A model generated the notes under the pieces. It was not told where the DNA came from and did no database searches. It saw only the letters and a list, made by a program, of their open reading frames with translations. 33,845 nt of DNA, taken from Terriglobales bacterium (GTDB lineage Bacteria; Acidobacteriota; Terriglobia; Terriglobales; Acidobacteriaceae). The translations under genes and the position numbers were made by a program. Positions within the stretch are counted from its first letter, which is position 1. Every line of letters begins with the position of its first letter. Below are positions 52-33,769 of this stretch, in pieces. The DNA is taken from positions 1 through 33,845 of the forward strand of contig JAATGG010000243.1 in NCBI GenBank assembly GCA_015654835.1, written 5' to 3'.

Positions 52-1299
52 TCACTTAGATGGCGGGAGCGTCGATACGGACTGGCCTGTTAACTGGCGG
101 ATGATCTGCACTTCGCGAAGCCGATATGGTTTGCCGTCAGGATAGAAGACGTCGTGGAACCACACTGTGGGTTCGATCATCATATAGGGACGCTGCCAGG
201 AATCCCACGGTAGGTTGGTCTGTGTCTTCCCCTGTACGAAACCCCAGTTGATGGCTCCGACCTGATAGTGCTTGGCTATGGGCAGGATGGTGTCAAAAGT
301 GCTACCAGAGCCTCGCGCCATGTACTCCGTGCAGAGGATGGGACGGTGGTAGGACAAAAGTGTCTGGATAACATGCTCAAACTCTTCCGGCCATCCGTAG
401 TTATGGAAAGTGATGATATCGGACTCTTCGAGCTGGATTCGGTTGATGCGCGAGAGCGAGTCACCGGAAGTCCAGTCGCCCCGCCACACTCCGCTGGTGA
501 GAGGTTGATCAGGATGTGCAGAGCGCGCCCATGTGAAGACTTTCGGCAACAGAGCGGCGACTCGGTCGGACTTCTCCTTGAACTCTACGCGGCCATAGGA
601 AGACTCGTTCGCATTGTCGGGCTCGTTCCATAGATCCCATGCGAGAACGCGAGGGTCATGGGCGAACGCTCCGACGATACCCTCGACATACTGTTGCAGG
701 CGCGTTTCCTGTGCAGGATCGCGAAGCGCGTTCTCGCCGGGACTCTGGACCCAACCGGAGTTATGGACGCCGGGAATGGGAGGGTGCTGCGGGCCGAGTT
801 CTGGAAACGGGTTCCAGCAGGAGTCGAAGAGCACGAAGATGGGACGGATGTGATGACGCACGGCGATGGCGAGGAAGGTATCGATGCGTTTCGTGAAGTC
901 CGCGGAGTCCTGCTGCCAGAGAAGATCGTGGAGGAATACGCGCATGGTATTCATGCCGATCGACTCGGCCCATCCAAGCTCAAGATCAATTTCCTTGGGG
1001 TCGAATGTAGAGGTCTGCCACATTTCAAGCTGATTGATAGCGTTCGTCGGGATGTAATTGCTGCCGACCGGCCAGGGCTGTGTGCGATACCATTCCTGCG
1101 CACGCTGGGTGGACCACCGAGCGCGCGCAGACTCCGCCTGCAGGGGAGAGGCAGCAAACGCTAGGAGGCAGATGAAACAGGACAGCAAAGGCAGAAAACT
1201 CAGTGTGACGGAGTGCGCGTTACGAGAAGGAGAAAGCGTGAATGCAAGAAAATGAATATAAGAAGGCGATGTGCGAGCGCATGCGGGCCGGTTGCTCAT
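52..1299 (-). CDS. Secreted clan-A (GH5-like) glycoside hydrolase
   Basis: Predicted exported beta-glycanase of the cellulase/1,4-beta-xylanase type, 415 residues from the ATG at 1299; a TTG four codons upstream is also possible. A hydrophobic stretch at about residues 36-55 ends in a signal-peptidase-like SPLQA-E site, but the polar N-terminal region before it is unusually long. The remainder reads as a (beta/alpha)8 hydrolase. WDLWNEPDN places the acid/base Glu near residue 226, TFHNYGW holds the usual strand-6 His/Tyr, and CTEYMAR supplies the nucleophile Glu near 325. Family membership beyond clan A and the substrate cannot be fixed by eye. It lies upstream of, and divergent from, the sugar-binding protein/kinase operon, which suggests it is one of that system's targets. 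Confidence is high for the fold and low for substrate. Confidence 0.85.
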   Translation of the reverse strand: MSNRPACARTSPSYIHFLAFTLSPSRNAHSVTLSFLPLLSCFICLLAFAASPLQAESARARWSTQRAQEWYRTQPWPVGSNYIPTNAINQLEMWQTSTFDPKEIDLELGWAESIGMNTMRVFLHDLLWQQDSADFTKRIDTFLAIAVRHHIRPIFVLFDSCWNPFPELGPQHPPIPGVHNSGWVQSPGENALRDPAQETRLQQYVEGIVGAFAHDPRVLAWDLWNEPDNANESSYGRVEFKEKSDRVAALLPKVFTWARSAHPDQPLTSGVWRGDWTSGDSLSRINRIQLEESDIITFHNYGWPEEFEHVIQTLLSYHRPILCTEYMARGSGSTFDTILPIAKHYQVGAINWGFVQGKTQTNLPWDSWQRPYMMIEPTVWFHDVFYPDGKPYRLREVQIIRQLTGQSVSTLPPSK

Positions 1300-1591
1300 T
1301 GTATGGATCAACTTTCCTGAGGTCTTGTTTTATACGGCCACGAACGTCAGACGGCACCGTATGTGTGAAGCGCAACAGCGAATGACGTGTATGCCGGGCG
1401 CTCGATCAAGCAATAAAGGGTGAATCGGGTCGTTATCAATAGGGCATTTGGCCCAAAAGCGGTAGTACATATGCACCCCACCCGACTCGGCAATGTGCAT
1501 GAAAGCCGCTCTATATGCGGGGTTCAACGCGATACACGGCGGTGGGGGGCCGCAGGAGGCGATGCACCAGAAGAGAATTGAACGTGAAATA
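1300..1591. promoter_or_regulatory. Divergent intergenic region with a shared 10-mer
   Basis: This divergent promoter region separates the glycoside hydrolase from the sugar-binding-protein operon. It contains AATAGGGCAT at 1438-1447, followed by TTGGCCC, which makes a small GGGC/GCCC dyad. The identical 10-mer occurs at 5472-5481, between the response regulator and the TonB receptor. That makes it a candidate binding site for the response regulator. I saw no convincing -35/-10 pair. An AGGAGG at 1554-1559 does not sit at a good distance from any in-frame start. Confidence 0.3.
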
Positions 1592-2593
1592 ATGTGCGCG
1601 GTGACAGGGATGAGCGCACGAAGGACATTCGGGCTGGCGGTTTCTGTAGTCGCAATTTCAGTTTTCGTCATTGCGTTCGCGGTATGGAAGGGCAGACGGC
1701 CGAAAGTGATTGCCGTGGTTCCGGAAACGACGGCCCAGGAGATATGGGAAGCGGAGCACGCAGGTGCGACGGAGGCTGCGCGGGCTTTTGGCTGGAAGGT
1801 CTACTGGAACGGGCCGAGTCGCGAGGACGATTTTCCGCGGCAGGTGCAGATCGTTCGGCAGGCTATTGCGCGCAGGGTTCTCGGACTAGTGCTTTCGCCG
1901 GATCACGATGTGGTGCTGATTAGCACCGTGCAGGAGGCGCTCGACAAGAAGATTCCGGTGGTGATTACAGGAACACCGTTGGGTGTGTCGCTGGGGAATG
2001 GACTGACCTTCGTGCTCAACGACGACGCGGCGATGGGGCGCATGGCTGCAGCACGCGCGGCACGGTTGTTGAAGCCCGGCGATACTGTAGCTGTGCTGGG
2101 TGTGAATCCGAATGTGCTCAGCTCGATTGAACGCGCGAATGCGTTCGAAGATGCGATTCGGACGAAGGTTGAAGATGTGCGCGTCGAAGAGAAGCACAGC
2201 ACATCGGTGAGCACAGCGGAGGCGGAAGAAGTGGCCGAACGGCTGATCCGCGCGGACCCACATCTGCGCGTGATTATCGCGCTGAATGTGAATCAGGCGC
2301 GTGCCGCATACGGTGCTGTGCTGAACACGAGGACCGTGGATAGAATTCCGTTGATTGTGTGCGATCAGGATTTGGACCTGCTGCACCACCTGCGCTCAGG
2401 CAGGATCGACTCGCTGATCGCACAGAACTCCTATGGGATGGGCTACACGGCGATCCAGAATATACATAAGCAGCTTGCAGGTGAGGCAGTGCAGCCGTTG
2501 ACGGCGATAGCGCCGGTGCTGGTGACGCGGGAGAATGTGGACTCCGATGCCGTGCAGCAGGTTTTGAACATGGACTGGAGAGTCCGACAGTGA
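1592..2593 (+). CDS. Membrane-anchored periplasmic sugar-binding protein (LacI/RbsB-type fold)
   Basis: Periplasmic-binding-protein-like domain of the ribose/xylose type, 333 residues from the ATG at 1592. An in-frame reading extends upstream to 1493, but the part before 1592 looks non-coding. A hydrophobic segment (TFGLAVSVVAISVFVIAFAVW) at about residues 12-32 is followed by KGRR and lacks a clear cleavage site, so the protein is probably membrane-anchored. The two-lobed binding domain starts at PKVIAVVPET, with features typical of the family (LVLSPDH, KKIPVVITGTPLG, VIIALN, PLIVCDQD, SLIAQNSYGMG). No permease or ATPase gene is nearby. The stop overlaps the GTG of the histidine kinase (GTGA), so translation is coupled. 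It is best read as the ligand-binding co-sensor of that kinase, in the manner of ChvE/VirA or XylFII/LytS. Confidence 0.85.
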   Translation: MCAVTGMSARRTFGLAVSVVAISVFVIAFAVWKGRRPKVIAVVPETTAQEIWEAEHAGATEAARAFGWKVYWNGPSREDDFPRQVQIVRQAIARRVLGLVLSPDHDVVLISTVQEALDKKIPVVITGTPLGVSLGNGLTFVLNDDAAMGRMAAARAARLLKPGDTVAVLGVNPNVLSSIERANAFEDAIRTKVEDVRVEEKHSTSVSTAEAEEVAERLIRADPHLRVIIALNVNQARAAYGAVLNTRTVDRIPLIVCDQDLDLLHHLRSGRIDSLIAQNSYGMGYTAIQNIHKQLAGEAVQPLTAIAPVLVTRENVDSDAVQQVLNMDWRVRQ

Positions 2594-4764
2594 AGCGGAC
2601 GCGACGAAGCCTTGGAAGTGTTTGCACGGTGGTGATCATCACAGTCGCCGCAGGATGCGGCGTGCATGCGTGGCTGCGCTGGCATAGCGATCGCGTGCCG
2701 CCGAATCGCGTCTTCGCACTGAATGGGGGGCGGCTCGAAGGTGCACAGTCCTTCGGAGGAGTGTGGGAGGTGGCGCACGGCAATGTGCGCAACAACTCTG
2801 ACGAGCGCGGCGCGAAGCTGGTGACGGGGTCGCAAAGGTGGCGGGATTATACGCTGACGGCGGAACTGAAGTTCGACGGTGAGCACGGCGACATGGGCGT
2901 CATTCTGCGGTCCACGGATGAAGAGGAAGGTGTGGATGCGTACAACGGATACTATGTCGGACTGCGTACAACCGACGCAGCGCTGATTATCGGGCGATCC
3001 GACTATGGATGGATGGAGGCGAAGCCGGTGCCGATGCCGGGCGGCATTCATGCGGGCAACTGGTATCGACTTGTGGTCACCGCAGTGGGATGCCACATTG
3101 CTGCCTCGTCGCAGAACCTGACGACAGGGCAGATCGCGTGGATTGCAGTGGAGGAGCACCCGTGCGCTGAGGCAGGACGTATCGGGCTTCGCTCACTTGC
3201 CACGGGAGGAAGCTGGCGCCACATCAGCATCAAGCCGGCTATGCAGATCGACGATCTGACGATGCGTGGTCATGCTGCGTCGGTCGCGCAGCTGGAATTT
3301 CCGAAGCGAGAAGCGGACTACAACCGGATATTTCACTTCAGCTCCACGTATGAATCTCCGGCGCAACTGCTGGGGCCAGCCGAACCGCAGTCCGAAAAGC
3401 TTCTGCATATTGGCGATCTGACGGACCTCCCGCGATCACCTGACCGCGATGTATCTCTCCGAGGCGTGGTGACGCTGGCGACGCGCAATCTTTACGTGCA
3501 GGATGAGGAGAGCGGTATGTTGGTGATGGACGCACTCACACCGCCACTCAATGTGGGAGACGAGGTGGAAGTTGTCGGACACGCCCAGCCAGGCCTCTAC
3601 AGTTCGGTAATCCGCGGCGGGACGGTGCGGCTGTTGTGGAGCGGACAGCCCACGCCACCGATTGCGATCACGGCGCTTCAGGCGGCATCAGGAGTTTACG
3701 ACGCGCGCTTTGTGGAAGTGGAGGGACGGCTCACTCGGGTGCGACAGCCGAGGAAGACCGAGCAGACACTCGAGTTTATGCAGGGAGGGCAGTCATTCAC
3801 CGCGTTGTATGCAAGCCCTTCCGGAGCGTCTCTGCCGCCGCTCAAGATTAATAGCCTGCTGCGCATTCGCGGCGTATGCGTGCTGGATCGTAGAGTGACT
3901 CAGGAGATGACGCCGTTCGCGATCCTGCTGCGCTCGAGCGACGACGTGCAGATGCTGGCGCCGCCGCCATGGTGGACGCCGCGGCATGTGAGCATGCTCC
4001 TGGCTGTGCTGCTTGGCGTGGGATTGCTTATTCAGCTTCTCTACTTCCGGTTGAAGGTGTGGCAGGCAAATGCGGTTTCGCAGGAGCGCGAACGGCTCGC
4101 GCACGACATTCACGACACGATGGCGCAGAGCTTTGCAGGAGTCGGCTACCAGATACAGGGCATTCGCAGCGGGCTGCAACGCAAGAGCTATCCAGATTCT
4201 CGTGCGGTGGTCGAACAATTGGACATGGCCTACCAGTTGGTAAGGAAGTCACACGAAGAAGCAAGCCGTACGATTGCGACGCTGAATTCTTCGGCGCTGG
4301 ACATCCAGGGGTGCCTACTGGACTCGCTGATCCAAACGACGCGCAAGATCACCGGCGACAGTGTGGAGACCGATGCGCGCACCGAGGGAGCGCCGTTCCG
4401 GCTCAATCTGCGTCTGGCGAACGCGCTGTTGCACATCGGCCAGGAAGCGATTGCAAACGCGGTGAGTCACGCACATCCAACGACGCTCCGCATTACGATT
4501 CGCTATGAAGAGCCGCGCGTGGAACTGGCTGTCGAGGATAACGGAGCTGGATTCCACTATTCGCAGGAGAAGGCGGGCTTTGGCATATTCGGAATGCAAA
4601 AGAGAGTGCAGTCGGTCGGTGGAAAGCTGGAAATCTCCAGCACGCCGGGCGCGGGAACACGTGTGTACGTAACCGCGATCTCGCGGCCAAGCACACTACA
4701 CGCGAGGATTGCCGCAAAGACGACTGAGAAACTTCATCGCATAGCGCGTTTTCTAAATATCTAG
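2590..4764 (+). CDS. Sensor histidine kinase (NarL-type partner) with DUF1080-like and OB-fold periplasmic domains
   Basis: Membrane sensor kinase of 724 residues starting at a GTG that overlaps the preceding stop by four bases. An N-terminal membrane segment (residues 9-29) leads into a periplasmic LamG/DUF1080-like domain at about 38-215 (WEVAHGNV, YTLTAELKF, NGYYVGL, GNWYRLVV). Two OB-fold-like repeats follow at about 275-345 and 375-455. A second membrane helix lies near 467-486. The cytoplasmic part is HisKA_3 (RLAHDIHDTMAQ, phospho-acceptor His508) and HATPase_c (N box near 615, VEDNGAGF near 649, GFGIFGM). This is the NarX/DesK class, which signals to LuxR-type regulators. The convergent gene that follows encodes exactly such a regulator. 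The carbohydrate-binding-like domain suggests the kinase senses a glycan directly as well as through the coupled binding protein. Confidence 0.9.
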   Translation: MKRTRRSLGSVCTVVIITVAAGCGVHAWLRWHSDRVPPNRVFALNGGRLEGAQSFGGVWEVAHGNVRNNSDERGAKLVTGSQRWRDYTLTAELKFDGEHGDMGVILRSTDEEEGVDAYNGYYVGLRTTDAALIIGRSDYGWMEAKPVPMPGGIHAGNWYRLVVTAVGCHIAASSQNLTTGQIAWIAVEEHPCAEAGRIGLRSLATGGSWRHISIKPAMQIDDLTMRGHAASVAQLEFPKREADYNRIFHFSSTYESPAQLLGPAEPQSEKLLHIGDLTDLPRSPDRDVSLRGVVTLATRNLYVQDEESGMLVMDALTPPLNVGDEVEVVGHAQPGLYSSVIRGGTVRLLWSGQPTPPIAITALQAASGVYDARFVEVEGRLTRVRQPRKTEQTLEFMQGGQSFTALYASPSGASLPPLKINSLLRIRGVCVLDRRVTQEMTPFAILLRSSDDVQMLAPPPWWTPRHVSMLLAVLLGVGLLIQLLYFRLKVWQANAVSQERERLAHDIHDTMAQSFAGVGYQIQGIRSGLQRKSYPDSRAVVEQLDMAYQLVRKSHEEASRTIATLNSSALDIQGCLLDSLIQTTRKITGDSVETDARTEGAPFRLNLRLANALLHIGQEAIANAVSHAHPTTLRITIRYEEPRVELAVEDNGAGFHYSQEKAGFGIFGMQKRVQSVGGKLEISSTPGAGTRVYVTAISRPSTLHARIAAKTTEKLHRIARFLNI

Positions 4765-5393
4765 TCGTCGATGCGAATCAAGCCTCGCGTGATGGCCTTG
4801 GTAGAGGCTTCGGTGCGATCATTGGCTCCTAGCTTGATGAGACAGCTGGTCACGTGATTGCGTGCTGTCTTGTCGCTGATGAAAAGTTTCAGCGCTATTT
4901 CCTTGTTGGAAAATCCGCGCGCAACGAGAGCGAGCACTTCCAGTTCCCGGTCGCTTAGCTTATCGCGCCCGAGCGTGTTCAAGAGACGGCGGGAGATTTC
5001 CTCCGGGATATAGCGTCCGTTTCTGGATAAAGTGCGTACGGCCTCGACGATTTCTTCCTGGGGAGTGCACTTGAGCAGGTATCCCATGGCGCCTGACTGA
5101 ATGGCTTTCGAGATGTACTCGTCTTCCTGATAGTTGGTGAGTACGAGAATGCGGATCCCAGGCCAGCGACGGCGCATTTCCACGATTGCGTCTGTGCCGG
5201 CCATGCCGGGCATGCGGAGATCCATGAGGACGACTGTGGGGTCGGCTCGTTCGACTTCCTGCATGGCCTCGGCAGCGGAGCCTGCCATTGCGACGACGGA
5301 GATGTCGTCTTCGCTCTCGAGCATGGTTTTAAGGCCCATGCGCACAACCGGATGGTCGTCGACGATTAAAACGTGAATTGACTTCTCATGCAT
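4761..5393 (-). CDS. NarL/FixJ-family response regulator
   Basis: Response regulator of 210 residues, probable partner of the convergent kinase. The receiver domain shows the acidic pair VDDHP near residues 12-13, the phospho-acceptor Asp58 in VLMDLRMPG, the switch Thr in VLTNYQ and the conserved Lys in LLKCTP. The C-terminal LuxR-type helix-turn-helix runs from about 146 (LSDRELEVLALVARG, SNKEIA, VTSCLIKLG). I chose the ATG at 5393. A TTG seven codons upstream (5414) is possible, but the receiver begins immediately after the ATG. The stop is the reverse complement of the kinase stop: both genes end in the same CTAG at 4761-4764. Likely targets are the glycoside hydrolase, the receptor and its own operon (inference). 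Confidence 0.93.
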   Translation of the reverse strand: MHEKSIHVLIVDDHPVVRMGLKTMLESEDDISVVAMAGSAAEAMQEVERADPTVVLMDLRMPGMAGTDAIVEMRRRWPGIRILVLTNYQEDEYISKAIQSGAMGYLLKCTPQEEIVEAVRTLSRNGRYIPEEISRRLLNTLGRDKLSDRELEVLALVARGFSNKEIALKLFISDKTARNHVTSCLIKLGANDRTEASTKAITRGLIRIDD

Positions 5394-5637
5394 GTCTTCG
5401 GCGGCCTTTATCAATCGGAGTACATTCTATCGTCGCTACGCCGGGACGTATATGTGGATGAGCACGGATTGAATAGGGCATGTGCACTATCACAGATTGG
5501 TATTTACGCCACCTTGTGCATGATATTGCGCGAACCCTATTGTCTCCAGTGGCCGGAAGAAGGCACAAATTGTTGCATCAACGAACCACGCGATAACCAT
5601 TATCTCACGAGATTGCAATCCTGCTTGGAGGCAAGAC
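5394..5637. promoter_or_regulatory. Divergent control region for response regulator and TonB receptor
   Basis: This 244-base region separates the two divergent genes. AATAGGGCAT at 5472-5481 repeats the 10-mer seen upstream of the sugar-binding protein. It forms the left half of an imperfect 18-base dyad at 5473-5490 (ATAG-G-GCA-TG-TGC-A-CTAT). A CCCTATTG at 5535-5542 is the reverse complement of the core. The receptor gene has a clear ribosome binding site, GGAGG, at 5627-5631. Promoter boxes could not be assigned confidently. Confidence 0.35.
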
Positions 5638-8600
5638 ATGCAAAAAAGAAGCTGCATCAGAGGCCCGCATGGCATACGCAGTGCAGTTCGGTCCGCACTA
5701 TGCCTATTGGCTGTACTGGCGCTCACGGCTTTGTACGCAAATGCACAGGACTACCGCGCGAAACTGACCGTAACGGTATCGGACAGTACTGGCGCCGTCA
5801 TCCCGGGGGCGACCCTGGAATTGACACGTGTGAGCACCGGAATCGCGACGCCGGCGAAGTCCGATGCCGCAGGCACCTACATCTTCCAGTTCATCGAGCC
5901 GGACAGCTACACGCTGACGGCATCGGCGGCAGGTATGAGCACCGCGCAACGAACCGGAATCGTGCTTCAGTCCTATGCCGCAAGCAGCATCAGCATCCAG
6001 CTTGTACCCGCCGCTGTGAGTTCACAAGTGATGATCACGGCGGAACCTGCGCTGCTCGAGACGCAGAGCGCATCCCGCGCATTCAACATCGAAAGCAAGA
6101 TGGTACAAGAGCTGCCTGTAATCAACGGAAATCCGGTGATGCTCGGCAACGATGTTCCCGGTGTACGGGTTCGCCCTCTTGGAATCTATACCGATCCCTG
6201 GACAGTGACCTCGCAGTACATGATCAACGGTGGCCTGATGTATCTGAATGAGTTTCAGATTGACGGCAGCCCGAACGACGCGGAGTTCGGCGGCAACACC
6301 TATGCCTATACACCGCCGCAGCCTGCGGTCAAGGAGTTCTCCGTCAGCGCCAATAACTACGACGCCGAATATGGACACACCAGTGGCGGCGTGGTGAACT
6401 TGAGCACCCTGTCGGGGACCGACGTGTATCACGGAATGGTGTGGAGCTCATTTCGCCGGACGGACTGGAATGCAAACTCGTTCCAGAACAAGTACGCGAA
6501 CGTAGTGAATAACACCACATCGAATACGACGCCATTCAACGAGCAGACGCAGATCGGCTTTCAGGCTGGCGGTCCGCTCCGGTTACCGCGCCTGGTGCCG
6601 CACTCCGACCATTACAAGCCGTATTTTTTCTTTGCATTCGACCATTACCTAGAGAAGCTGCCGCGCAGTCTGTTGCTTTCATATCCCACAGCGAAGATGC
6701 GCACCGGTGATTTTTCAGAATTACTCAATCAGCCTGGCTATCCGTCGATCACGATCAACGACCCGGACAGTGTGCATCAGGACATCAACGGCAAGTGGGT
6801 GCGCGATTCCTTCCCGGGGAACATCATTCCGGCATCGCGGCTGAACCCGGTGGCTGTAGCCGTCGCGAAACTACTTCCTGACGTGAACAGCACACCTACC
6901 GGCCAGCGCGTCGGTACTGCTAACCTGGCCATTCCAAATAACCACTACGATTGGCATTTTCGCAATCTGCTTGGTCGCTTCGACTTCAATATCGGAGACA
7001 AGTACAAGTTCTTCCTACGCCCGTATTACTCCAGATTTACCGAAGTGAGCAATGCGGGAGGAATTATGGGACCGGGCGAAAACGGCGGTGAATTCTCGAG
7101 AAAGGCGAAGGGTTTTCTCTTCGACTTCGTGGATGTTCTCGGTGCCAAGACCGTGCTAAACGTACGCGCCGGATACACGAACTTCGCAGTGGTGTGGGCG
7201 AGTCCTAAGAACGAGGGCTTCGACCTGACGTCAATCGGTCTTCCCGCAGGATTCGTGGATGGACTGCAGCAGCCGGCACTGTTCGGCAACTGGAACTTTA
7301 CCGGCTACAACGGCATGGGCTGGTTTGCGAACAGCGAGCTTACCGGCACTTATTCGGCGCAGGGATCGTTGTCGCACTCGATGGGCAAGCACAATGTGCG
7401 CATGGGTGCCGACCTCCGCCTGACCCGGTTTAACTTTTACAATCCAGGCGCATTCACATTCAATAATGGACCGGACTGGACGGAAGATACGTACGCACAG
7501 CAAGACGGCACGGCGGTCGGTCGCAGCGGCGATGGCTTTGCAAGCTTCCTGCTGGGCACGCCGACTAGCGGCAACGTTGGCATCAACGCCGACGAGCAGA
7601 TATCAAGCAAGTACATCGCTCCGTGGATTCAAGACGACTGGAGACTCGCTCCGCACCTGACCATCAATGTCGGTCTGCGTTACGACGTGCTGACGGGGCC
7701 AATCGATCGGCACGATCAGATTATCACAGGCTTCGATCCTACGATCCCGAGTGCGGTGCAGCAGCAACTGCCGCCCAATGCCGCTCAGATTCTGCCGGCA
7801 GCGTCGAACTTGACAGGCGGCTTGGTATACGCGGGCGTCAACGGCGGCACGCGCAACGCCGTAGCCACCGTATACGACAACATTCAACCTCGCATCGGTT
7901 TCGCATGGCAACCAATCGATCGGATTGTCGTCCGCGGCGGCTATGGTCTGTTCTATACGAACTTCCAAAGCAACGGGATGATGAATCAGCTCGGGTTCTC
8001 ATCGAACACACCGCTGGTGACATCGAGTGACAACGGCATTCACCCAGTGGACAACCTGTTGGAAAACCCGTTTTCCGGCGGTCTGATCCAGCCGACAGGC
8101 GCAGCGCTGGGAACGATGACGGGCGTGGGCACGAGCATCTCCGCCTACAACCATAACTATCACCTTCCAAAGGCGAACGAGTTTTCGTTGGGCGTCCAGT
8201 ACCGGCTCTTGCATAGCGGGGTGCTGGATGTGGCGTATGTCGGAAACCGCGTGAATGGTTACGACATGAACTACAACGCAAACTATCCCACACACAACTT
8301 CCTGAAGACCTGTTCGTTGGCTTACGGCGATGCAGATGCGCAGTGGGGCAACTGCTGGGCGCCGGTTCAGAATCCATTCAAGGGTGTCCAGGCATTTTCG
8401 GGTACCGCTTACTACAGCAACGACACCAATCAAGCATTTGACATGAACCGGCCGCATCCACAGTTTCAGGATGTGACGGTGGCGGGCCTGAACGACGGGC
8501 ACGTCTGGTATGACGGCCTGCAGATTTCGTATCGGCAGCGCATGTCGCACGGCATCAGCTTCAACACCAGCTATGTCTGGTCGAAGCAGATTGAGCAGTG

Positions 8601-9297
8601 GGGCTGGCTGAGCCAGGACCTGAACCTGCGCCAGCGGAGCGTCTACTATCTTGAGGTTCCGAAGTCGTTCAAGATCGATGGTGTTTTCCAACTGCCGTTC
8701 GGTCGTACACGCCATTTCAACCTTGGCAATAGTCGTATTGCCGACGCCTTTGTCGGTGGATGGGACGTCTCGCCAGTCCTCACCATTCAGAGCGGCGAGC
8801 CAATCGCATTGCCGTCCGGCGCACGTCCACTGCCGCACAACAAATTCAACAAACACCCCGACTGGGGCAATCTCAATCCGATTGGATTCCTGGGTTGGGG
8901 ACACTGCGTACTGCATCACCTGGCGGGTGGAGGCGTGGAGCCGTTGGCCACGAACACCGCTTATGGTGCATGCCCGAGCGATCTGGGCGAGTATGACTGG
9001 ATCGTCTACGACACGTTACCGAACGAGGCAATCGAAGGGTCGAACTCTGATGTGATTCGGATGAAACCCATGTTGCTGAGCGACGCATCGCTGCAGAAGA
9101 GCCTCGCGATCCGTGAGGGGATGAACGTGATTGTTCGCCTCTCTGCCTCGAATGTTCTGAACCACTTCAACATGTTGACGGCTCGCTTTAACTCGAACGC
9201 GTGGGATCCGAACTTCGGTTCGATCATCCCCGGACAGACGCCGGCCGCGGATTCACCGCCGCGCAACCTCAACGTCCAGATCCGGTTCGAATTCTAG
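5638..9297 (+). CDS. TonB-dependent receptor with N-terminal carboxypeptidase-regulatory domain (Oar-like)
   Basis: Outer-membrane receptor of 1,219 residues, a size typical of acidobacterial Oar-like proteins. It has a signal peptide (hydrophobic core LCLLAVLALTALYANA, cleavage near residue 36) and a carboxypeptidase-regulatory-like beta-sandwich at about 40-130 (VSDSTGAVIPGATLELT, GTYIFQFIEPDSYTLTAS). A plug domain follows at about 135-255 (INGGLMYLNEFQIDG, HTSGGVVNLST), then a long beta-barrel ending in the C-terminal aromatic signal VQIRFEF. GGAGG precedes the ATG by six bases. The family imports or handles large glycans or peptides using TonB energy; no TonB, ExbB or ExbD gene is visible here. 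Its position next to the kinase/regulator pair suggests regulated uptake of the sensed polysaccharide. A hairpin terminator follows. Confidence 0.92.
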   Translation: MQKRSCIRGPHGIRSAVRSALCLLAVLALTALYANAQDYRAKLTVTVSDSTGAVIPGATLELTRVSTGIATPAKSDAAGTYIFQFIEPDSYTLTASAAGMSTAQRTGIVLQSYAASSISIQLVPAAVSSQVMITAEPALLETQSASRAFNIESKMVQELPVINGNPVMLGNDVPGVRVRPLGIYTDPWTVTSQYMINGGLMYLNEFQIDGSPNDAEFGGNTYAYTPPQPAVKEFSVSANNYDAEYGHTSGGVVNLSTLSGTDVYHGMVWSSFRRTDWNANSFQNKYANVVNNTTSNTTPFNEQTQIGFQAGGPLRLPRLVPHSDHYKPYFFFAFDHYLEKLPRSLLLSYPTAKMRTGDFSELLNQPGYPSITINDPDSVHQDINGKWVRDSFPGNIIPASRLNPVAVAVAKLLPDVNSTPTGQRVGTANLAIPNNHYDWHFRNLLGRFDFNIGDKYKFFLRPYYSRFTEVSNAGGIMGPGENGGEFSRKAKGFLFDFVDVLGAKTVLNVRAGYTNFAVVWASPKNEGFDLTSIGLPAGFVDGLQQPALFGNWNFTGYNGMGWFANSELTGTYSAQGSLSHSMGKHNVRMGADLRLTRFNFYNPGAFTFNNGPDWTEDTYAQQDGTAVGRSGDGFASFLLGTPTSGNVGINADEQISSKYIAPWIQDDWRLAPHLTINVGLRYDVLTGPIDRHDQIITGFDPTIPSAVQQQLPPNAAQILPAASNLTGGLVYAGVNGGTRNAVATVYDNIQPRIGFAWQPIDRIVVRGGYGLFYTNFQSNGMMNQLGFSSNTPLVTSSDNGIHPVDNLLENPFSGGLIQPTGAALGTMTGVGTSISAYNHNYHLPKANEFSLGVQYRLLHSGVLDVAYVGNRVNGYDMNYNANYPTHNFLKTCSLAYGDADAQWGNCWAPVQNPFKGVQAFSGTAYYSNDTNQAFDMNRPHPQFQDVTVAGLNDGHVWYDGLQISYRQRMSHGISFNTSYVWSKQIEQWGWLSQDLNLRQRSVYYLEVPKSFKIDGVFQLPFGRTRHFNLGNSRIADAFVGGWDVSPVLTIQSGEPIALPSGARPLPHNKFNKHPDWGNLNPIGFLGWGHCVLHHLAGGGVEPLATNTAYGACPSDLGEYDWIVYDTLPNEAIEGSNSDVIRMKPMLLSDASLQKSLAIREGMNVIVRLSASNVLNHFNMLTARFNSNAWDPNFGSIIPGQTPAADSPPRNLNVQIRFEF

Positions 9298-9299
9298 CC

Positions 9300-9332
9300 A
9301 ACTGCTGGGCCCGCGTCGCGGGGCCAGCAGTT
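9300..9332 (+). terminator. Hairpin terminator after TonB receptor
   Basis: AACTGCTGG at 9300-9308 pairs perfectly with CCAGCAGTT at 9324-9332, with a GC-rich inner stem, just after the receptor stop. The T tract is short (TTTG), so termination may be partial and allow readthrough into the sialidase-like gene. Confidence 0.6.
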
Positions 9333-9411
9333 TGTTCAGAAAGTCGTAATGAGCCATACGTAGACGATAGTGGCGTCCACGAAGCAGGACTGACTTGATT
9401 GGGAAGGAAAT

Positions 9412-11475
9412 ATGCTGAAATTCCTGGCGCAGTATTTACGTATCTTCTGCCGCGCGCTCTTCGACGGTGGAAAGCAACGACATTGCTCGTCGATCGGATG
9501 GCTGGTCTGCCTGCTCCTGCCTGCATTGTCGATGTCCGCGGTAGCGCAAACTCTACTCACGAACGACGCTGCCGCATACGCACGCACGGTACGTCTTTCG
9601 CACAGTGCAGACAGCACGAAGAACGGAAACATCGTCGTCGCCATGACCGCATTCCCAAGCACCGGAGCGGAAGCGTCGATCTACTCGAGCACCGACGGAG
9701 TGACGTTTACAAAAATCGGCGGGGTCAAAGACGCGGATTTCTCTGGTGGGCTTTGCTGTGGAACCCTGTACGAGCTGCCGTCCCAAGTAGGCGATCTGCC
9801 TGCGGGAATGTTGCTGTGGTCTGGATCCGTGGGACAGTCTTCTACAACCCAGGCGATGCAATTGAAGGTATACGCGAGCGCAGACCAGGGAAAGACATGG
9901 TCGTATCTCTCCAATTGCTCGACCGGGACGAAGCCTGGCACGACCGGTGGAGGATTGTGGGAGCCACAGTTTACAGTGGCCAGCGACGGAGCGCTGGTGT
10001 GCTTCTTCTCGGATGAGACAGTCGCCGGGCATAGCCAGTTGTTGCGGCAAGTGCGCACTTATAACGGTCTCACCTGGCAGGATTCGAAGTATACGGTGGC
10101 GAGCACTATGCAGTCCGACCGTCCGGGTATGGTTGTGGTGACGAAGCTGCCTAGCGGTCTCTACTTTATGAGTAACGAACTGTGCGGCCCCGCGGCCTGC
10201 ACGGTATTCACGCGGACCTCTGCGGATGGATGGAATTGGGGCGATGCGACAAACATGGGCAACCGCGTGGTGACGGAGACCGGCGAATGGCTGGAGCACG
10301 CGCCAACCAACGCGTGGGCGCCGTCTGCTGCCTCGCCGAACGGGACGATTCTGCTGATCGGCCAGATGATGTACAGCAGCACCGGGTCCGTTGCGAGCGG
10401 CAATGGCATTACGATTCTCACCAACCACTCTGCGGACGGGACGGGTACCTGGGGCACGATGCCCGCACCCGTGAAGGTGCCGACTGCATACGACAATTAC
10501 TGCCCGAACTATTCCTCTCCGCTGTTGCCCTCAATCGACGGACAAAGTGTGCTGGAGTTTGCGTCGAGCTATTCGGGTTCCGTTTGCAAGATGTATTACG
10601 CGACCGGGCCAATACTTGCGGGCACCCTGACGCCGACACTGACGGTGACACCGAGTTCGACGATCATCACGACGGCGCAGTCTGTGAACGTTACTGTAAG
10701 CGTGAATGGCGCTGCGAGAGCCCCGACGCCGACCGGTACGGTGACTCTAACAAACGGCGCGAGCTATACGTCGACCGCGGCGACACTGGGCAATGGAAGT
10801 ACGAGCATCGTAATACCGGCAGGGGCACTCGCGGACGGCTCTGTGACACTGACCGCGCAGTACAGTGGCGATGCGAACTACGCGGCGGCGAACGGTACCG
10901 CTAGCCTCACGGTGACGCCGGCGCCACAGCCTGGATTTTCGATTGGTGGCGGAAACACGTCCATCAAGGCAGGCGCCACCACAGGCAACACCGTGTCGAT
11001 CACGATCACGCCAACAGATGGGTTCACAGGCAGTGTGTCACTCTCGGCGCAGATTACGTCAGCGCCGAGCGGCTCGACGCGCTATTACCCCCTCTTGAAT
11101 TTCGGCTCGACGAGTCCGGTGAGCATCATGAGCACGTCGCCAGCGACGGCTACGCTCACAATCCTAAGTACCACCAGGAGCAATGCCCAGGCTCGCTCGT
11201 CCAGCGGACCGTGGCAGGCACTTGGGGCGGTGTCAGTGGCGCTGATTGGCTTTCCGCCGTTCTGTCTTGCTTCACGTCGCAGACGGAATCGCTGCGGCAT
11301 CTTGTGGTTGATTCCGCTGATTGCGGTGGGGTTGGGTATCACTGCGTGTGGCGCTACCACCAAGGCGTCCGGCCGCGCCGAATCTGGCACACAGGCAGGG
11401 GCATATGTCATCACAATCATCGGCACCTCAGCCGGCGTGAGCGCAACGGGCACAGCGATGGTGACTGTCCAGTAA
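9412..11475 (+). CDS. Sialidase-fold (BNR/Asp-box) surface protein with Ig-like domains
   Basis: Exported protein of 687 residues. After a long N-terminal region the signal core is WLVCLLLPALSMSAVAQ. The part at about 45-400 resembles a six-bladed sialidase/exo-hydrolase propeller: SADQGKTW is a clear Asp box and TSADGWNW a degenerate one. Whether it is catalytic is unknown. An Ig-like repeat follows at about 412-505 (PTPTGTVTLT, ALADGSVTLTAQYSGDANY) and then a second beta-sandwich (GFTGSVSLSAQ). The C-terminus has a hydrophobic segment, an Arg cluster (ASRRRRNR), a second hydrophobic segment ending GITACG, and a final beta-rich tail. The same ending occurs in the protein at 21212-22195. A GGAAGG ribosome binding site precedes the ATG. 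It is probably a cell-surface glycan-binding or glycan-cleaving partner of the receptor. Confidence 0.8.
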   Translation: MLKFLAQYLRIFCRALFDGGKQRHCSSIGWLVCLLLPALSMSAVAQTLLTNDAAAYARTVRLSHSADSTKNGNIVVAMTAFPSTGAEASIYSSTDGVTFTKIGGVKDADFSGGLCCGTLYELPSQVGDLPAGMLLWSGSVGQSSTTQAMQLKVYASADQGKTWSYLSNCSTGTKPGTTGGGLWEPQFTVASDGALVCFFSDETVAGHSQLLRQVRTYNGLTWQDSKYTVASTMQSDRPGMVVVTKLPSGLYFMSNELCGPAACTVFTRTSADGWNWGDATNMGNRVVTETGEWLEHAPTNAWAPSAASPNGTILLIGQMMYSSTGSVASGNGITILTNHSADGTGTWGTMPAPVKVPTAYDNYCPNYSSPLLPSIDGQSVLEFASSYSGSVCKMYYATGPILAGTLTPTLTVTPSSTIITTAQSVNVTVSVNGAARAPTPTGTVTLTNGASYTSTAATLGNGSTSIVIPAGALADGSVTLTAQYSGDANYAAANGTASLTVTPAPQPGFSIGGGNTSIKAGATTGNTVSITITPTDGFTGSVSLSAQITSAPSGSTRYYPLLNFGSTSPVSIMSTSPATATLTILSTTRSNAQARSSSGPWQALGAVSVALIGFPPFCLASRRRRNRCGILWLIPLIAVGLGITACGATTKASGRAESGTQAGAYVITIIGTSAGVSATGTAMVTVQ

Positions 11476-11660
11476 CGAAGGCATCGAGACTGGCAGAAAT
11501 CGCGCGCTGGCGGCAACATGCAGCCAGAAAAGAGCGGTATTGTGATCGATGGTTCGGTGGTGCGATCAGATCCGAATCCAGGGCACAGGAATAGCAGCGA
11601 TGGTGGGGACAGCTATCGAACCCAGGTAGGCAGGTTGCGCTCGATCCGCGCCCTGTTTCC

Positions 11661-13151
11661 TCATTGATGCGGATGAAGCATATCCGTATCTTTGATTAGG
11701 AAGAGCCGTTCGGCAGGGTCAGCGGAAAGCTGTTGAAGCTCGGGAGAGAAGCCACCCAAGGCGAAGAGAATGTAGCTTGACTTGTCTCGCCATCGCGCCT
11801 CAGGTAGGCTGGCGACCTTAGCTTGTAAGGCACTCAGGTCGCTAAGGCGCGTAACGCGCTCTGTGCGCCACTTGCACTCTCCGAAGAGAAAAGTACCGTC
11901 GTCGAGTTCCGCCATGAGATCGATTTCTGTACGGCCATCGCGGCTCCAGTAGCGCGCCATCTCGCGCACACTGAGACCCAAGCGCGGCTGCGCATTCCGT
12001 TGTAGCCACTGGCCGCAGATTTCCTCGAATACCGACCAGCCCATGTAATCGGCCAGTCGTGGTGCTACCTGTGCCGCGTAAACCGTAGCGGGGTCTGAGA
12101 ATTGCAAGGCGCTAGACAACGGCGCAACAAAGCGATACCAAAATGTCAGAAAAGGATCGGCGACACGATAGATTGCCCTGCGGTCGGAGCGCTCGCCAAA
12201 AGGAAGCTCGCGCCGAATCCAACCCAACTCCAGCAACGTGCGCAGGGAGGCCGAAAGCGCTCCACGCTCCACGCCGATCAACTGCTGAATACGATTAAAT
12301 TTCGTTTCGCCACTGGCAATAGCCGCCAGGATCGCATTGTAGGGAGCCGGGTCGCGGATTTGTTCGCTGCCCAGCAGGAACCGTACCTCGTTTTCGAGGA
12401 TTGCGCGGGGCTGCATGAGAAGCGTCACAATCTCCTCGGCTGGAGGGTGCGACGTATCTACCAGCGCGTGGTAACGCGGCGTTCCACCGAAGACACCATA
12501 CATCAGCAGCTTCTCGACCACGCCATACGCAGGACTGTTGGCGTAGAAGGCTGCCACGTCTTCGTAATGAAGCGGATCGAGGTGGAAGATTCCAGCATTG
12601 AAGCGCCCAAACAGAGGAGCGCTCTCTTGCCCTAGAGCAGCCATCGCCGAGAGTTGGGAACCGCATAGAACCACAAAAAGCGGGGAATGCACGCCCTCGC
12701 GGTCCCACCATGCTTGCAGGATGGAAGGCAACTCTGGAGTTTGGGCAACCAAATAAGGAAATTCATCGAGGATCAGAGCAAACCGGCCCGCTGTTTTTTT
12801 CCGTGACTGAGCCTGCTGTGAGGCGTAGCGAAGTAGAGCGTTCCAGGAAACGGCAATTTCCTCAGCGGCAACACCACCCTCGGAAGGCAGGGCTGCGATT
12901 AGTTGACGGGCCAGGGTAAGCCGCTGTGTGACGGCGGTAGACTGTTCCGCCAGAAAATAGCAGTGGGGCTTTTCCAGCTCGTTTCCGCCAAAACCTGCCG
13001 TGAAGTAGCGCTGCAAGAGGAATGTCTTCCCCAACCGCCTGCGCCCGTAAAGGAGCAGCATCTGTCCACCGGCCCCACGGCGCTTCCATGCGCGATCCAG
13101 GGCTGCGAGTTCGAGCGTCCGATCATAAAAGGGATCAGGTTTGATGGTCAT
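11661..13151 (-). CDS. Archaeal-type AAA ATPase with C-terminal DUF234 nuclease-like domain
   Basis: ATPase of 496 residues in the archaeal_ATPase/DUF234 group. Walker A is GRRRLGKT (36-43), Walker B is LILDE (126-130), and CGSQ near 163-166 is the likely sensor 1. A winged-helix stretch lies near 270-330 (FNRIQQLIGV, LRTLLELGWI), followed by the family motif DPFLTFWYRFV. The C-terminal region keeps a PD-(D/E)xK-like core: EID (Asp411), then ECK (Glu425, Lys427). Genes of this family are common in prokaryotic accessory regions; their biochemical role is poorly known and some authors link them to mobile elements or defence. Here it lies between the Ig-like gene and an intron/transposase relic, on the same side as the integrase. 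It is intact, with no visible partner gene. Confidence 0.88.
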   Translation of the reverse strand: MTIKPDPFYDRTLELAALDRAWKRRGAGGQMLLLYGRRRLGKTFLLQRYFTAGFGGNELEKPHCYFLAEQSTAVTQRLTLARQLIAALPSEGGVAAEEIAVSWNALLRYASQQAQSRKKTAGRFALILDEFPYLVAQTPELPSILQAWWDREGVHSPLFVVLCGSQLSAMAALGQESAPLFGRFNAGIFHLDPLHYEDVAAFYANSPAYGVVEKLLMYGVFGGTPRYHALVDTSHPPAEEIVTLLMQPRAILENEVRFLLGSEQIRDPAPYNAILAAIASGETKFNRIQQLIGVERGALSASLRTLLELGWIRRELPFGERSDRRAIYRVADPFLTFWYRFVAPLSSALQFSDPATVYAAQVAPRLADYMGWSVFEEICGQWLQRNAQPRLGLSVREMARYWSRDGRTEIDLMAELDDGTFLFGECKWRTERVTRLSDLSALQAKVASLPEARWRDKSSYILFALGGFSPELQQLSADPAERLFLIKDTDMLHPHQ

Positions 13152-14582: not shown

Positions 14583-15818
14583 CTAATGGCGCCGGAAATT
14601 GCCGGCGACCACCTCAGACTCAGTGATAATCGAGTCGACGTAATTCGCCCACCATTGCAGCATCCCTGTCCGCTGCTTCGCATATTCCGCACGATTGTAG
14701 ATGCCGGCAATGCCGCCTTTTTCATGGCTTAAAGCCTTTTCAATTACGTCTCTGGACCAGCCATTCTCCGAGGCATTCTCGTTGAGCAGGGTCGACGCCG
14801 TCCGTCGCTGGTCGTGAATGGTGAAAGGCTCCATGTCGAACGTCAAGCCTTCGAGTGCCTGGTTTAGCGCGTTTTTTGCGAATGGTTGGTTTAGCTTGCC
14901 CCGTCCAGGCAGGACGAACCGGGAACCTCCAGCAAGCGCTTTCAATTCGCGGAACATCGCCGCTACCTGCACCGACATATAAACGGTATGCTCGTGCTCC
15001 TCGCCCTTCTTCCCCTTCATGTGCTCTTTCGGAATCGTCCACTCGCCGGTCGAAAAATCTATTTCGTCCCAATTTGCAAGCAGGATCATGGACTTCCTCG
15101 CCAGCGTTAGGAGAAGGATGTGGAGGGCGAGTTTGAACTGACGGCGGATGTTACTCCGGTAGATGACGTGGAGGTACTCGCGTATCTCCTTGGGAGGTAG
15201 ATACCGGCTACGCCGCGTCGCCTTACCGATGTATCGAGTGGCCACCATCGCTGCCGGGTTCATTGCCGCGAGTTGCAACTCCACCGCGTAGTCGTACATG
15301 CGCTTGATCGTGTTTCGCAAGCAGATTGCAGCCGACGGGTGCCCGCCATCTCGCTTTGGATATACCACTGATTGAATGTCGAGTGCGGTGATGTCCTTGA
15401 GAGGCCGATCTCCCAAAGCAGGGTACAAATCCTTCTCTAGGTAGCGGAGCTCGCCGCTCGGATCTTTCCAGTTCTTTGCAACCTGTTCGTCGTAATAGCG
15501 CTGACCAAATTCCCTCACTGTCACTACCTTTGAATCAGCGACGCTCGCTTGGCGAAGCTGCCGCTTATCTTCCGCAGGTGATTTTCCCTCCGCAACCTGC
15601 GCGGCCAGCTTGTCGCGCATCTCCCGCGCTTTCTTCAAAGTGAGATCTGGGTACCGCCCCATGACGAGTTTGTCCTGCTTGCCGTTGATGGTGTACTTGA
15701 ATATCCAGCTCATCCCGCCGCTTGGATTTACTTCAATTAGCAGTCCTCTTTCGACCCGCTTGACGTAGCGTTTGATCGATGGCTTCAATGCGCTTATTTC
15801 TCTATCAGTTAAGCCCAT
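14583..15818 (-). CDS. Tyrosine recombinase / island integrase (DUF4102 arm domain)
   Basis: Integrase of 411 residues of the P4/genomic-island type. The N-terminal DUF4102 arm-binding domain covers about 1-90 (LTDREISALKP, GGMSWIFKYTING, MGRYPDLTLKKAREM). A core-binding SAM-like domain covers about 98-195. In the catalytic domain the residues appear complete: Arg241 (LARKSMI), His335 and Arg338 (IHDQRRTA), His365 (ALSHEKGG) and the nucleophile Tyr374 (GIYNRAEY). The ribosome binding site GGAG lies inside one of three repeats that cover the promoter. It starts 173 bases downstream of the mnmE stop and is transcribed in the same direction, the arrangement known from SGI1-type islands. It is probably active. 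Confidence 0.93.
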   Translation of the reverse strand: MGLTDREISALKPSIKRYVKRVERGLLIEVNPSGGMSWIFKYTINGKQDKLVMGRYPDLTLKKAREMRDKLAAQVAEGKSPAEDKRQLRQASVADSKVVTVREFGQRYYDEQVAKNWKDPSGELRYLEKDLYPALGDRPLKDITALDIQSVVYPKRDGGHPSAAICLRNTIKRMYDYAVELQLAAMNPAAMVATRYIGKATRRSRYLPPKEIREYLHVIYRSNIRRQFKLALHILLLTLARKSMILLANWDEIDFSTGEWTIPKEHMKGKKGEEHEHTVYMSVQVAAMFRELKALAGGSRFVLPGRGKLNQPFAKNALNQALEGLTFDMEPFTIHDQRRTASTLLNENASENGWSRDVIEKALSHEKGGIAGIYNRAEYAKQRTGMLQWWANYVDSIITESEVVAGNFRRH

Positions 15819-15991: not shown

Positions 15992-16009
15992 TTATTTTCC
16001 GATGCAGAA
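15992..16009 (-). other. Probable attachment site at the mnmE 3' end
   Basis: The last 18 bases of mnmE (TTCTGCATCGGAAAATAA, encoding FCIGK-stop) correspond to the 18-base core used by SGI1 and related islands at trmE/thdF. An integrase gene follows at the distance and orientation seen there. I could not find a second copy leftward in this window, so the far end of the element is decayed or lies beyond position 1. Confidence 0.5.
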
Positions 16010-20843: not shown

Positions 20844-21211
20844 GCTGCCCTATTGTAGAATCCTGATCCGCCTCGCCACACCCGCAAAATTGGCCACGGT
20901 GACGGTCGAGCTTGCCCTCGCCGCTTGCGGCGGAGTGCTCTTGCAGAGAAACTCGCGTCCGGGTTGCCGTCCGTACGTGCCATTCTTTCTTTCATTGCGT
21001 CCAAAGAAGCAGGGACCCGGCGAAAGAGCGTTGTCCTCCCGGCTCGCAACAAAAAAACCTGGGCGACCCGCCGAAAGCCAGTCCGGTGTGCAGAGCCGCC
21101 GGTGAAAAGGTCAAGGAAATGGCTCCGGCGCACCCGCGCCGGATACAATTGTTCTACGCTGCCACAAACGGGCGACACACGATTTTTTCTTCAGTATTGG
21201 AGTTGGTGCAC
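20844..21211. other. Divergent intergenic region ruvA / Ig-like gene
   Basis: This region is open in the forward frame of the downstream gene, but without family similarity or codon plausibility. A hairpin TCCGGCG/CGCCGGA (21124-21143) is followed by TACAAT (21144-21149), a possible -10 box for the Ig-like gene, although no -35 was recognised. Nothing else was seen. Confidence 0.3.
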
Positions 21212-33693: not shown

Positions 33694-33769
33694 TGGAGCA
33701 CCGGGCGGGTTTCGAACCCGCGAATACAGGTTTTGCAGACCTGCGCGTTAGCCACTTCGCCACCGGTGC
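33694..33769 (-). tRNA. tRNA-Cys(GCA)
   Basis: Complete cloverleaf on the reverse strand. The acceptor stem GCACCGG/CCGGTGC is followed by discriminator T and an encoded CCA. The D stem is GCG/CGC, the anticodon stem CAGGT/ACCTG carries loop CTGCAAA with anticodon GCA, and the T arm is GCGGG-TTCGAAA-CCCGC. U73 and GCA are the identity marks of tRNA-Cys. No integrase lies beside it here. Confidence 0.96.

Follow-up and report, generated by a model that had tools for sequence, protein, structure and literature searches.

The window analyzed here is the whole of contig JAATGG010000243.1 (33,845 nucleotides) from a Terriglobales bacterium of the Acidobacteriaceae (Acidobacteriota; assembly GCA_015654835.1). 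Near one end it carries adjacent genes for a periplasmic sugar-binding protein (SBP), a sensor histidine kinase, and a response regulator (Table 1). We read these genes as a three-component sensor for sugars that is of one kind with XylFII-LytS and CuaDSR, departs from them in its ectodomain, and has a local regulon including the neighboring GH5-like glycoside hydrolase and TonB-receptor genes; we give this reading a probability of about 0.73. The SBP, kinase, and regulator are inherited together as a signaling unit, which probably switches on neighboring genes for the uptake and digestion of sugar polymers. Comparison with related loci supports a pairing of the SBP with the kinase rather than with a transporter. 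Two marks of a three-component system were found, namely, a conserved adjacency of the SBP, kinase, and regulator genes and an SBP gene outside an ATP-binding cassette (ABC) operon.

The gene calls agreed with those of an earlier note made from the sequence alone. That note had placed a binding protein, a kinase, and a convergent regulator at 1592-5393, with a four-base overlap between the first two genes, and indeed the SBP gene stops with TGA at 2591-2593 and the kinase gene starts with GTG at 2590-2592. The stop codons of the convergent kinase and regulator genes overlap within CTAG. A Pfam scan assigned the SBP to Peripla_BP_4 (E = 3.5e-39) and the regulator to Response_reg plus GerE, and it recovered the flanking glycoside hydrolase and TonB receptor that the note had also named. 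In the PDB, the GH5-like protein weakly matched a mannanase (E = 0.0036), and homologs of it are present in some related loci. The SBP gene begins 1591 bases after the start of the contig, and the sequence covered ends just beyond the GH5-like gene.

Table 1. Features of the sensor locus and its flanks (positions in the window)
Feature	Positions	Strand	Remarks
Periplasmic SBP	1592..2593	+	Peripla_BP_4; hydrophobic N-terminal helix, residues 9-33, without a lipobox-like Cys
Sensor histidine kinase	2590..4764	+	Order: transmembrane segment 1, DUF1080/CBM66-like domain, OB-like region, transmembrane segment 2, HisKA_3, HATPase_c
DUF1080 (PF06439)/CBM66-like lectin-fold domain	2722..3234	+	Kinase residues 45-215
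First beta-rich unit, OB-like	3445..3639	+	Kinase residues 286-350; AlphaFold2 model and PF01336 matches in relatives
Second beta-rich unit	3709..3960	+	Kinase residues 374-457; AlphaFold2 model; no hhalign match to the first unit
HisKA_3 and HATPase_c	4084..4674	+	Pfam; contains His508 (4111-4113)
NarL/LuxR-type response regulator	4761..5393	-	Receiver with Asp58 and GerE helix-turn-helix; convergent to kinase
Candidate operator, copy 1	1438..1457		GH5-like/SBP intergenic region; 3 departures
Candidate operator, copy 2 (weaker)	1461..1480		GH5-like/SBP intergenic region; 3 departures
Candidate operator, copy 3	5472..5491		Regulator/TonB-receptor intergenic region; 1 departure
GH5-like glycoside hydrolase	52..1299	-	PF00150, E = 5e-6; divergent to SBP gene; likely regulon member
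TonB-dependent-receptor-like outer membrane protein	5638..9297	+	PF25183, E = 3e-142; divergent to regulator gene; likely regulon member

Further analysis of related loci showed that the SBP-kinase pairing is conserved. SBP matches were found in 29 of 60 genomes (own genome plus relatives), and a scan of the named genomes gave 34 loci, 24 from Acidobacteriota (14 of them named Acidobacteriaceae or Granulicella), 9 from Amycolatopsis, and 1 from Aureimonas. The SBP gene was followed by a DUF1080-OB-kinase gene in all 24 Acidobacteriota loci, counting L086, whose kinase gene ends at the contig edge ahead of the catalytic part. The pairing is more than a chance arrangement, having recurred in this independent scan and in the 59 systems described below. 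None of the 10 other loci had such a kinase, and ABC genes were present in 2 of them. Profile searches of 299 genomes of the class matched the OB region in 84 genomes and the SBP in 174, and at least 31 systems in at least 22 of the 299 genomes pair an SBP and an OB-kinase within 2 kb, as judged by eye; DNA was read for 29 of those 31, the remaining two being the window's system and a paralog in the same genome (L003). Together with the loci of the earlier searches, and after identical proteins were removed, these gave 88 SBP rows, 60 with a nearby OB-kinase and 28 without. The 60 kinase-coupled rows represent 59 loci and 59 systems, one SBP being split in two pieces. "Kinase-coupled" was defined by the nearby OB-kinase match, which makes that part of 59 out of 59 true by definition; the 24-out-of-24 pairing, the absence of ABC genes, and the tree branch described below are not. 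The rows were gathered by homology to the window, and the sampling favors its clade.

The other components were also frequently retained. A regulator was found within 4.5 kb in 57 of the 60 rows, on the same strand in 49 and on the opposite strand, as in the window, in 8; the one in L103 is 4.3 kb distant and may be unrelated. The three rows without a regulator were L049 and L086, both at a contig edge, and L066, where none was detected. A TonB-receptor homolog lies within 9 kb in 53 of the 60 SBP rows. The DUF1080 domain was retained in all 59 systems. In 54 of the 60 rows (53 of the 59 systems), it forms part of the kinase protein; in six, it is a separate gene, on the same strand in L003 and L098 and on the opposite strand in L047-L050. 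That the two occur both fused and split suggests a joint function of domain and kinase. Of the 28 rows without an OB-kinase, 14 had ABC genes and 14 had neither; one of the latter, L046, runs into its contig edge next to a TonB receptor and probably represents a truncated system.

Some variant loci were apparent among the relatives. In the L047-L050 branch, the separate DUF1080 gene sits between the SBP and kinase genes, the SBP motifs are strongly changed, and there is no window-type operator dyad. The SBP frame at 7710-8734 of L060 is broken into two overlapping frames, reflecting either a pseudogene or an assembly error. The paralog L003 (G000:C106, about 5107-12396) is a diverged second system with a separate DUF1080 gene, a TonB receptor, and GH43 and GH115 genes. 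Several genus genomes carry a second, weakly related SBP (L054-L058 and L061-L063; 21-25% identity), and the one of these that was scanned, L054, is Peripla_BP_4. No OB-kinase of this type adjoins them, and most of these genomes lack PF02653; ABC genes were not searched there.

No ABC permease gene adjoins the SBP gene within the part of the window examined, as the earlier note had stated; the far upstream side is off the contig. PF02653, the ribose-type permease family that adjoins the ABC-linked SBP relatives, had no match in the organism's own 4.7-Mb genome, which is 91.65% complete; 12 of 14 control genomes were positive. The family is present in just 4 of 36 genus genomes, the organism's own included in the 36 (G001, G008, G012, and G015). 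ABC genes, for which the queries were a single ATPase and a single permease, were not detected within 5 kb in any of the 59 kinase-coupled systems (60 SBP rows). According to the earlier note, homologous binding proteins lying consistently beside permeases would refute the sensor reading; such a link was seen in part outside the clade (14 of 27 SBPs ABC-linked, 13 of 27 with neither kind of neighbor) and not within it.

The SBP has the type I SBP fold and the Peripla_BP_4 sequence profile. In a tree of 85 SBP rows, a single branch (support 99/95; recovered in 100% of 200 bootstrap trees) separated the 58 kinase-coupled SBPs from the 27 others (14 ABC-linked and 13 with neither). Omitted from the tree were the weaker genus SBPs (L053-L059 and L061-L063), the Amycolatopsis and Aureimonas rows (L088-L097), and rows shorter than 240 aa (L046 and two of L060); L003, L098, and L143 have long end branches, and their placement was flagged as unsure. 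A single switch from transport to sensing would fit this tree, provided that the root falls among the 27. The sugar pocket differs between the two groups. At the positions aligned with the sugar ligands of RbsB, which we take to be Asp89, Arg141, Asn190, Asp215, and Gln235, the window SBP has Gly127, Arg181, Asn232, Asp258, and Gln278, so the first Asp is replaced and the others are kept. This presumed ligand Asp was found in 27 of 27 non-kinase SBPs compared to 8 of 58 kinase-coupled SBPs, and the residues corresponding to Arg181 and Asp258 were kept in 49 and 47 of the 58, respectively. A Cys closes the N-terminal hydrophobic stretch, as in lipoproteins, in 50 of the 58 kinase-coupled SBPs, and the other 8, including that of the window, have a hydrophobic N-terminal stretch without that Cys. 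In either case, the SBP would remain at the membrane.

On the kinase side, the DUF1080-like domain proposed in the earlier note was found (PF06439, E = 2.8e-8). Its structural model is closest to the carbohydrate-binding module CBM66 of Bacillus subtilis (4azz), consistent with a CBM66 fold, and the domain alone gave 0 matches at an E value of ≤1 against PDB sequences. Of the "two OB-fold-like repeats" claimed, sequence support was obtained for the first alone, and from relatives. The window's own OB-like segment matched no Pfam family. The OB family PF01336 was matched by 8 of 14 aligned segments at an E value of ≤0.1 (best, 2.2e-9), the window's segment not among them, and the single match that was located, in L048, falls in the first half of the region and slightly below the curated cutoff. 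A comparison by hhalign gave no match between the two halves of the region (probability, 0.5%), and the AlphaFold2 model of the kinase has beta-rich stretches in each. A role of the OB domain as the dock for the SBP was rejected, because the OB-like region is found in proteins without a nearby SBP as well (L107-L111, retrieved because their SBP lists showed none) and therefore need not be a docking site. The module without an SBP occurs in a GGDEF protein in L107 (G000:C16, 4319-6649) and in a HisKA_3 kinase in L111. Judging by this distribution, the OB-like module is a wider Acidobacteriota input module.

The catalytic part of the kinase consists of HisKA_3 and HATPase_c by Pfam, its model is DesK/VraS-like, and His508 is invariant across 29 aligned kinases. 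A HisKA_3 kinase with a GerE-type regulator is the NarL/LuxR-type two-component pairing. Membership in the LytS family was rejected because the catalytic core differs: HisKA_3 and HATPase_c are present without PF06580, presumably the His_kinase core of LytS family kinases, at an E value of ≤0.01. A fused SBP-kinase gene, which would prove contact, was not seen, the longest SBP frame among the matches listed being 565 aa.

A candidate operator, a 20-bp dyad of about nATRGTnCAnnTGnACYATn, was found upstream of both flanking gene pairs; the window's copies depart from this general form at 1 to 3 positions. It emerged when both intergenic regions that separate divergent genes in the window were compared with their counterparts in L033, L065, and L141. 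A generic repeat finder run on both gaps returned one short palindrome (1465-1476) and none in the regulator/TonB-receptor gap; the dyad is therefore known only from the comparison of loci. With a model made from the glycoside hydrolase/SBP sites of L033 and L065, the window site at 5472 was the best outside the glycoside hydrolase/SBP region (18.4 bits; next, 11.1) and the L141 site at 4482 was the best in its locus (25.8; next, 8.6). The other site of L065 itself scored just 9.0, and nothing clear was found in L066 and L067. The held-out test consisted of a nine-site window-clade model only, scanned over 55 other kinase-coupled loci. The best match lay upstream of the SBP, TonB-receptor, or regulator gene in 34 of the 55 loci compared to 4.2 expected by area, and complemented and column-shuffled control models reached 4 to 6 of 55. 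Among 28 SBP loci without the kinase, the best match was upstream in 4 compared to 1.2 expected, and L046 was one of these 4.

Two patterns were then counted. The shorter one, RGTNCANNTGNACY, was composed after the earlier dyad results and is not a held-out test; across 844 kb of system loci it matched 36 times, with 34 matches falling in 63 kb of upstream regions, and it occurred in 31 of 59 loci. After thinning of the loci at 60% identity between SBPs, 20 matches were left, 19 of them upstream, and 18 of 32 loci had one. It had 0 matches in the 27 non-kinase SBP loci. The strict form, ATRGTNCANNTGNACYAT, from which the window copies depart at 3, 3, and 1 positions, had 5 sites across 14 system-bearing genomes (present in 5 of the 14), and 4 of these sites lie at system loci. 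It had no site in a further 14 genomes that carry no clear system (13 without an SBP match; G102 with a weak match). The remaining site, at G253:C8:482532-482549, has no known system, and the system of that genome lies on C7. Motif score followed regulator similarity (Spearman 0.64, n = 51; the rows are related, and this is not a strict test), and the most diverged regulators (L145, L146, L148, and L149) were without the dyad. When the organism's own genome was searched with a pattern fitted to two sites of the window, 88 rows were returned, compared to 46 for a control pattern, and the exact matches were solely at 1439 and 5473, by construction. A wide regulon was rejected: of 20 of the 88 loci inspected, 17 were inside open reading frames of ≥120 aa and 3 were rows of the two intergenic window sites. 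The simplest reading would be a local, autoregulated regulon. The dyad common to both flanking pairs thus argues for the earlier proposal that the regulator controls the flanking genes, which is probably correct.

The proposed mechanism is as follows. The SBP would be anchored at the inner membrane by its N terminus and would bind a small periplasmic sugar. One ligand state of the SBP would make contact with the kinase ectodomain. This contact would alter autophosphorylation at His508, and the phosphate would then pass to Asp58 of the regulator. We infer sugar binding, the action of the SBP on the kinase, and phosphotransfer because known systems work in this way. The regulator is predicted to bind the dyad, which the two divergent promoter regions carry as AATAGGGCATGTGCACTATC and as two weaker copies. 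In this way it would regulate its own gene and those for the TonB receptor and the GH5-like protein as well as the SBP-kinase operon; this binding, for which the support is indirect, and the direction of the regulation we likewise infer. Least certain of all is the probable role of the CBM66-like domain as a second input that binds glycan.

Several observations weigh against the three-component reading. The SBP fold is equally near or nearer to ordinary transport SBPs, and the fold is therefore no argument for a sensor role. Two of the presumed sugar ligands are less kept in the kinase-coupled clade (Gln, 31 of 58; Asn, 9 of 58). Another, broad ABC permease family, PF00528, is matched eight times elsewhere in the genome and not on this contig, and in 14 of the 60 SBP rows, including that of the window, the DNA on one side is shorter than 5 kb. 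The occurrence of the OB-like region apart from SBPs belongs here as well. As for the dyad, it was not the best upstream match in 21 of the 55 held-out loci, and it was absent from L003 and L047-L050, though their regulators score well. L066 has only a weak dyad and no regulator nearby. A correlation with regulator distance is expected from shared descent, and nearest rows agree in just 28 of 55. In the window alone, the general form with ≤3 mismatches matched 6 times compared to 2.0 expected, a number attained by 3 of 100 shuffles; the case for the dyad therefore rests on the comparison of loci.

There are rival explanations. The SBP might be a transport protein serving a distant permease or one of another family, with the kinase sensing glycan through its CBM66-like domain and the pairing reflecting co-regulation only. 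We consider this improbable, given that PF02653 is absent from the organism's own genome and from 32 of the 36 genus genomes and that the SBP is paired with a kinase in every one of the Acidobacteriota loci. Within the three-component reading, the SBP may instead be a negative co-sensor or modulator that inhibits the kinase when ligand-free, or buffers ligand, while the CBM66-like/OB ectodomain carries the main signal. The universal retention of DUF1080, fused or separate, fits this variant, as does the CuaDSR sensor pair, which is reported to respond even without its SBP (PMC10384115). Yet Arg181 and Asp258 are mostly kept in the altered SBP pocket, and we hold the variant to be possible but on the unlikely side. 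It is very unlikely, in our estimate, that the dyad belongs to another regulator common to TonB-receptor loci and that the regulator of this system acts elsewhere. The loci in which the dyad was not the best upstream match and the one strict site in five away from any known system would suit such a regulator. Against it, in the genomes searched the strict form is confined to system-bearing ones and found mostly at system loci, and the shorter form was upstream of the SBP, TonB-receptor, or regulator gene in all but 2 of its 36 matches and missing from non-kinase SBP loci.

The three-component reading could be extended to a clade-wide, dual-input control of polysaccharide loci in Acidobacteriota, which we offer tentatively, with the odds somewhat against it. 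A tethered, permease-less, formerly transport-related SBP would report released sugar, the CBM66-like domain would report the polymer or a second sugar, and one kinase would govern a local regulon marked by the dyad. The CBM66-like domain is a separate partner protein in 6 of the 59 systems.

The neighbor scan covered 63 of 106 picked proteins. At an E value of ≤1e-5, 12 of the 63 were GH127 beta-L-arabinofuranosidases and 12 belonged to TPR families; on these enzyme families, the systems sit in plant-polymer loci of varying content. In the window, a GH67 alpha-glucuronidase gene, a xylan side-chain enzyme, lies at 22370-24919 (+; PF07488, E = 8e-144), about 17 kb from the system. A link of this gene to the regulon was unsupported, with no nearby dyad among the 12 best window sites. 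A tyrosine-recombinase integrase gene (14583-15818, -) adjoins mnmE (15992-17380) and may be a trace of a mobile element. Big_3_5 Ig-like domains occur in two window proteins (9412-11475 and 20912-22195, +), the former with an "invert_tail" C-terminal anchoring domain (NF058595, E = 7e-15). The sole tRNA gene in the window is for Cys (33694-33769).

Periplasmic binding proteins are kinase co-sensors in ChvE-VirA, TorT-TorS, and LuxP-LuxQ, and ChvE also serves transport; these systems have other ectodomains and other targets than the window system. The TorS-TorT structure 3o1i was among the entries of the SBP fold comparison. The XylFII-LytS system of Clostridium beijerinckii has a small, helical LytS ectodomain and controls an ABC xylose transporter. 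It is likewise of the SBP-kinase-regulator kind (PDB titles 5xsj/5xsd), whereas here we find a CBM66-like plus OB-like ectodomain, a HisKA_3 kinase, a NarL/LuxR regulator, and TonB-receptor and glycoside hydrolase neighbors. In the hybrid regulators of Bacteroidetes, an SBP domain is fused into a hybrid kinase-regulator. Like the present system, they combine SBP-type sensing with local regulation of glycan loci that carry TonB receptors and glycoside hydrolases, but here the SBP, kinase, and regulator are separate genes. One PDB match, the "sensor protein" 2x7x, is presumably BT1754, a Bacteroidetes hybrid two-component regulator of polysaccharide loci. CBM66 binds terminal fructosides. Compared to CBM66 (4azz) and the DUF1080/3-keto-disaccharide hydrolase family (PF06439), the domain here would be a kinase input domain.

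The nearest tested case is CuaDSR of Ruminiclostridium cellulolyticum. It is a three-component sugar system with a dedicated lipoprotein SBP, a kinase, and a regulator; a two-hybrid assay showed binding of the SBP to the ectodomain of the kinase, and the SBP aids low-cellobiose detection (PMC10384115). Its features unlike those here are a Clostridium-group host, a helical ectodomain, control of the cuaABC-cbpA ABC uptake genes, and a separate transport SBP. More generally, many SBP-activated kinases are encoded beside their SBPs, according to PMC11113362. The earlier note had not recognized the arrangement as a described one. SBP-kinase-regulator systems as such are known, in view of XylFII-LytS and CuaDSR (PMC10384115), but the domain layout and the Acidobacteriota lineage were not found in print. 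In the open-licence PMC literature, neither a description of this arrangement nor a glycan-sensing system for Acidobacteriota was found; the available part of PMC7074687 mentions two-component and TonB proteins and contains neither "sugar-binding" nor "histidine kinase." The window system is thus of a known kind; what sets it apart is its ectodomain, the classes of its kinase and regulator, its lineage, and its neighbors.

Acidobacteriota are abundant soil degraders, and to our knowledge little is known about how they choose among plant polymers. The unit supplies a named sensor set and a predicted operator, so its ligand and regulon are directly testable. A relative is present in an isolate-type record, Granulicella sp. 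S156 (L066), there without a nearby regulator. A family of transport SBPs has, apparently on a single occasion, produced a clade devoted to sensing whose sugar pocket is altered. If the dual-input proposal is true, the unit would fill the role played in Bacteroidetes by hybrid two-component systems and SusR.

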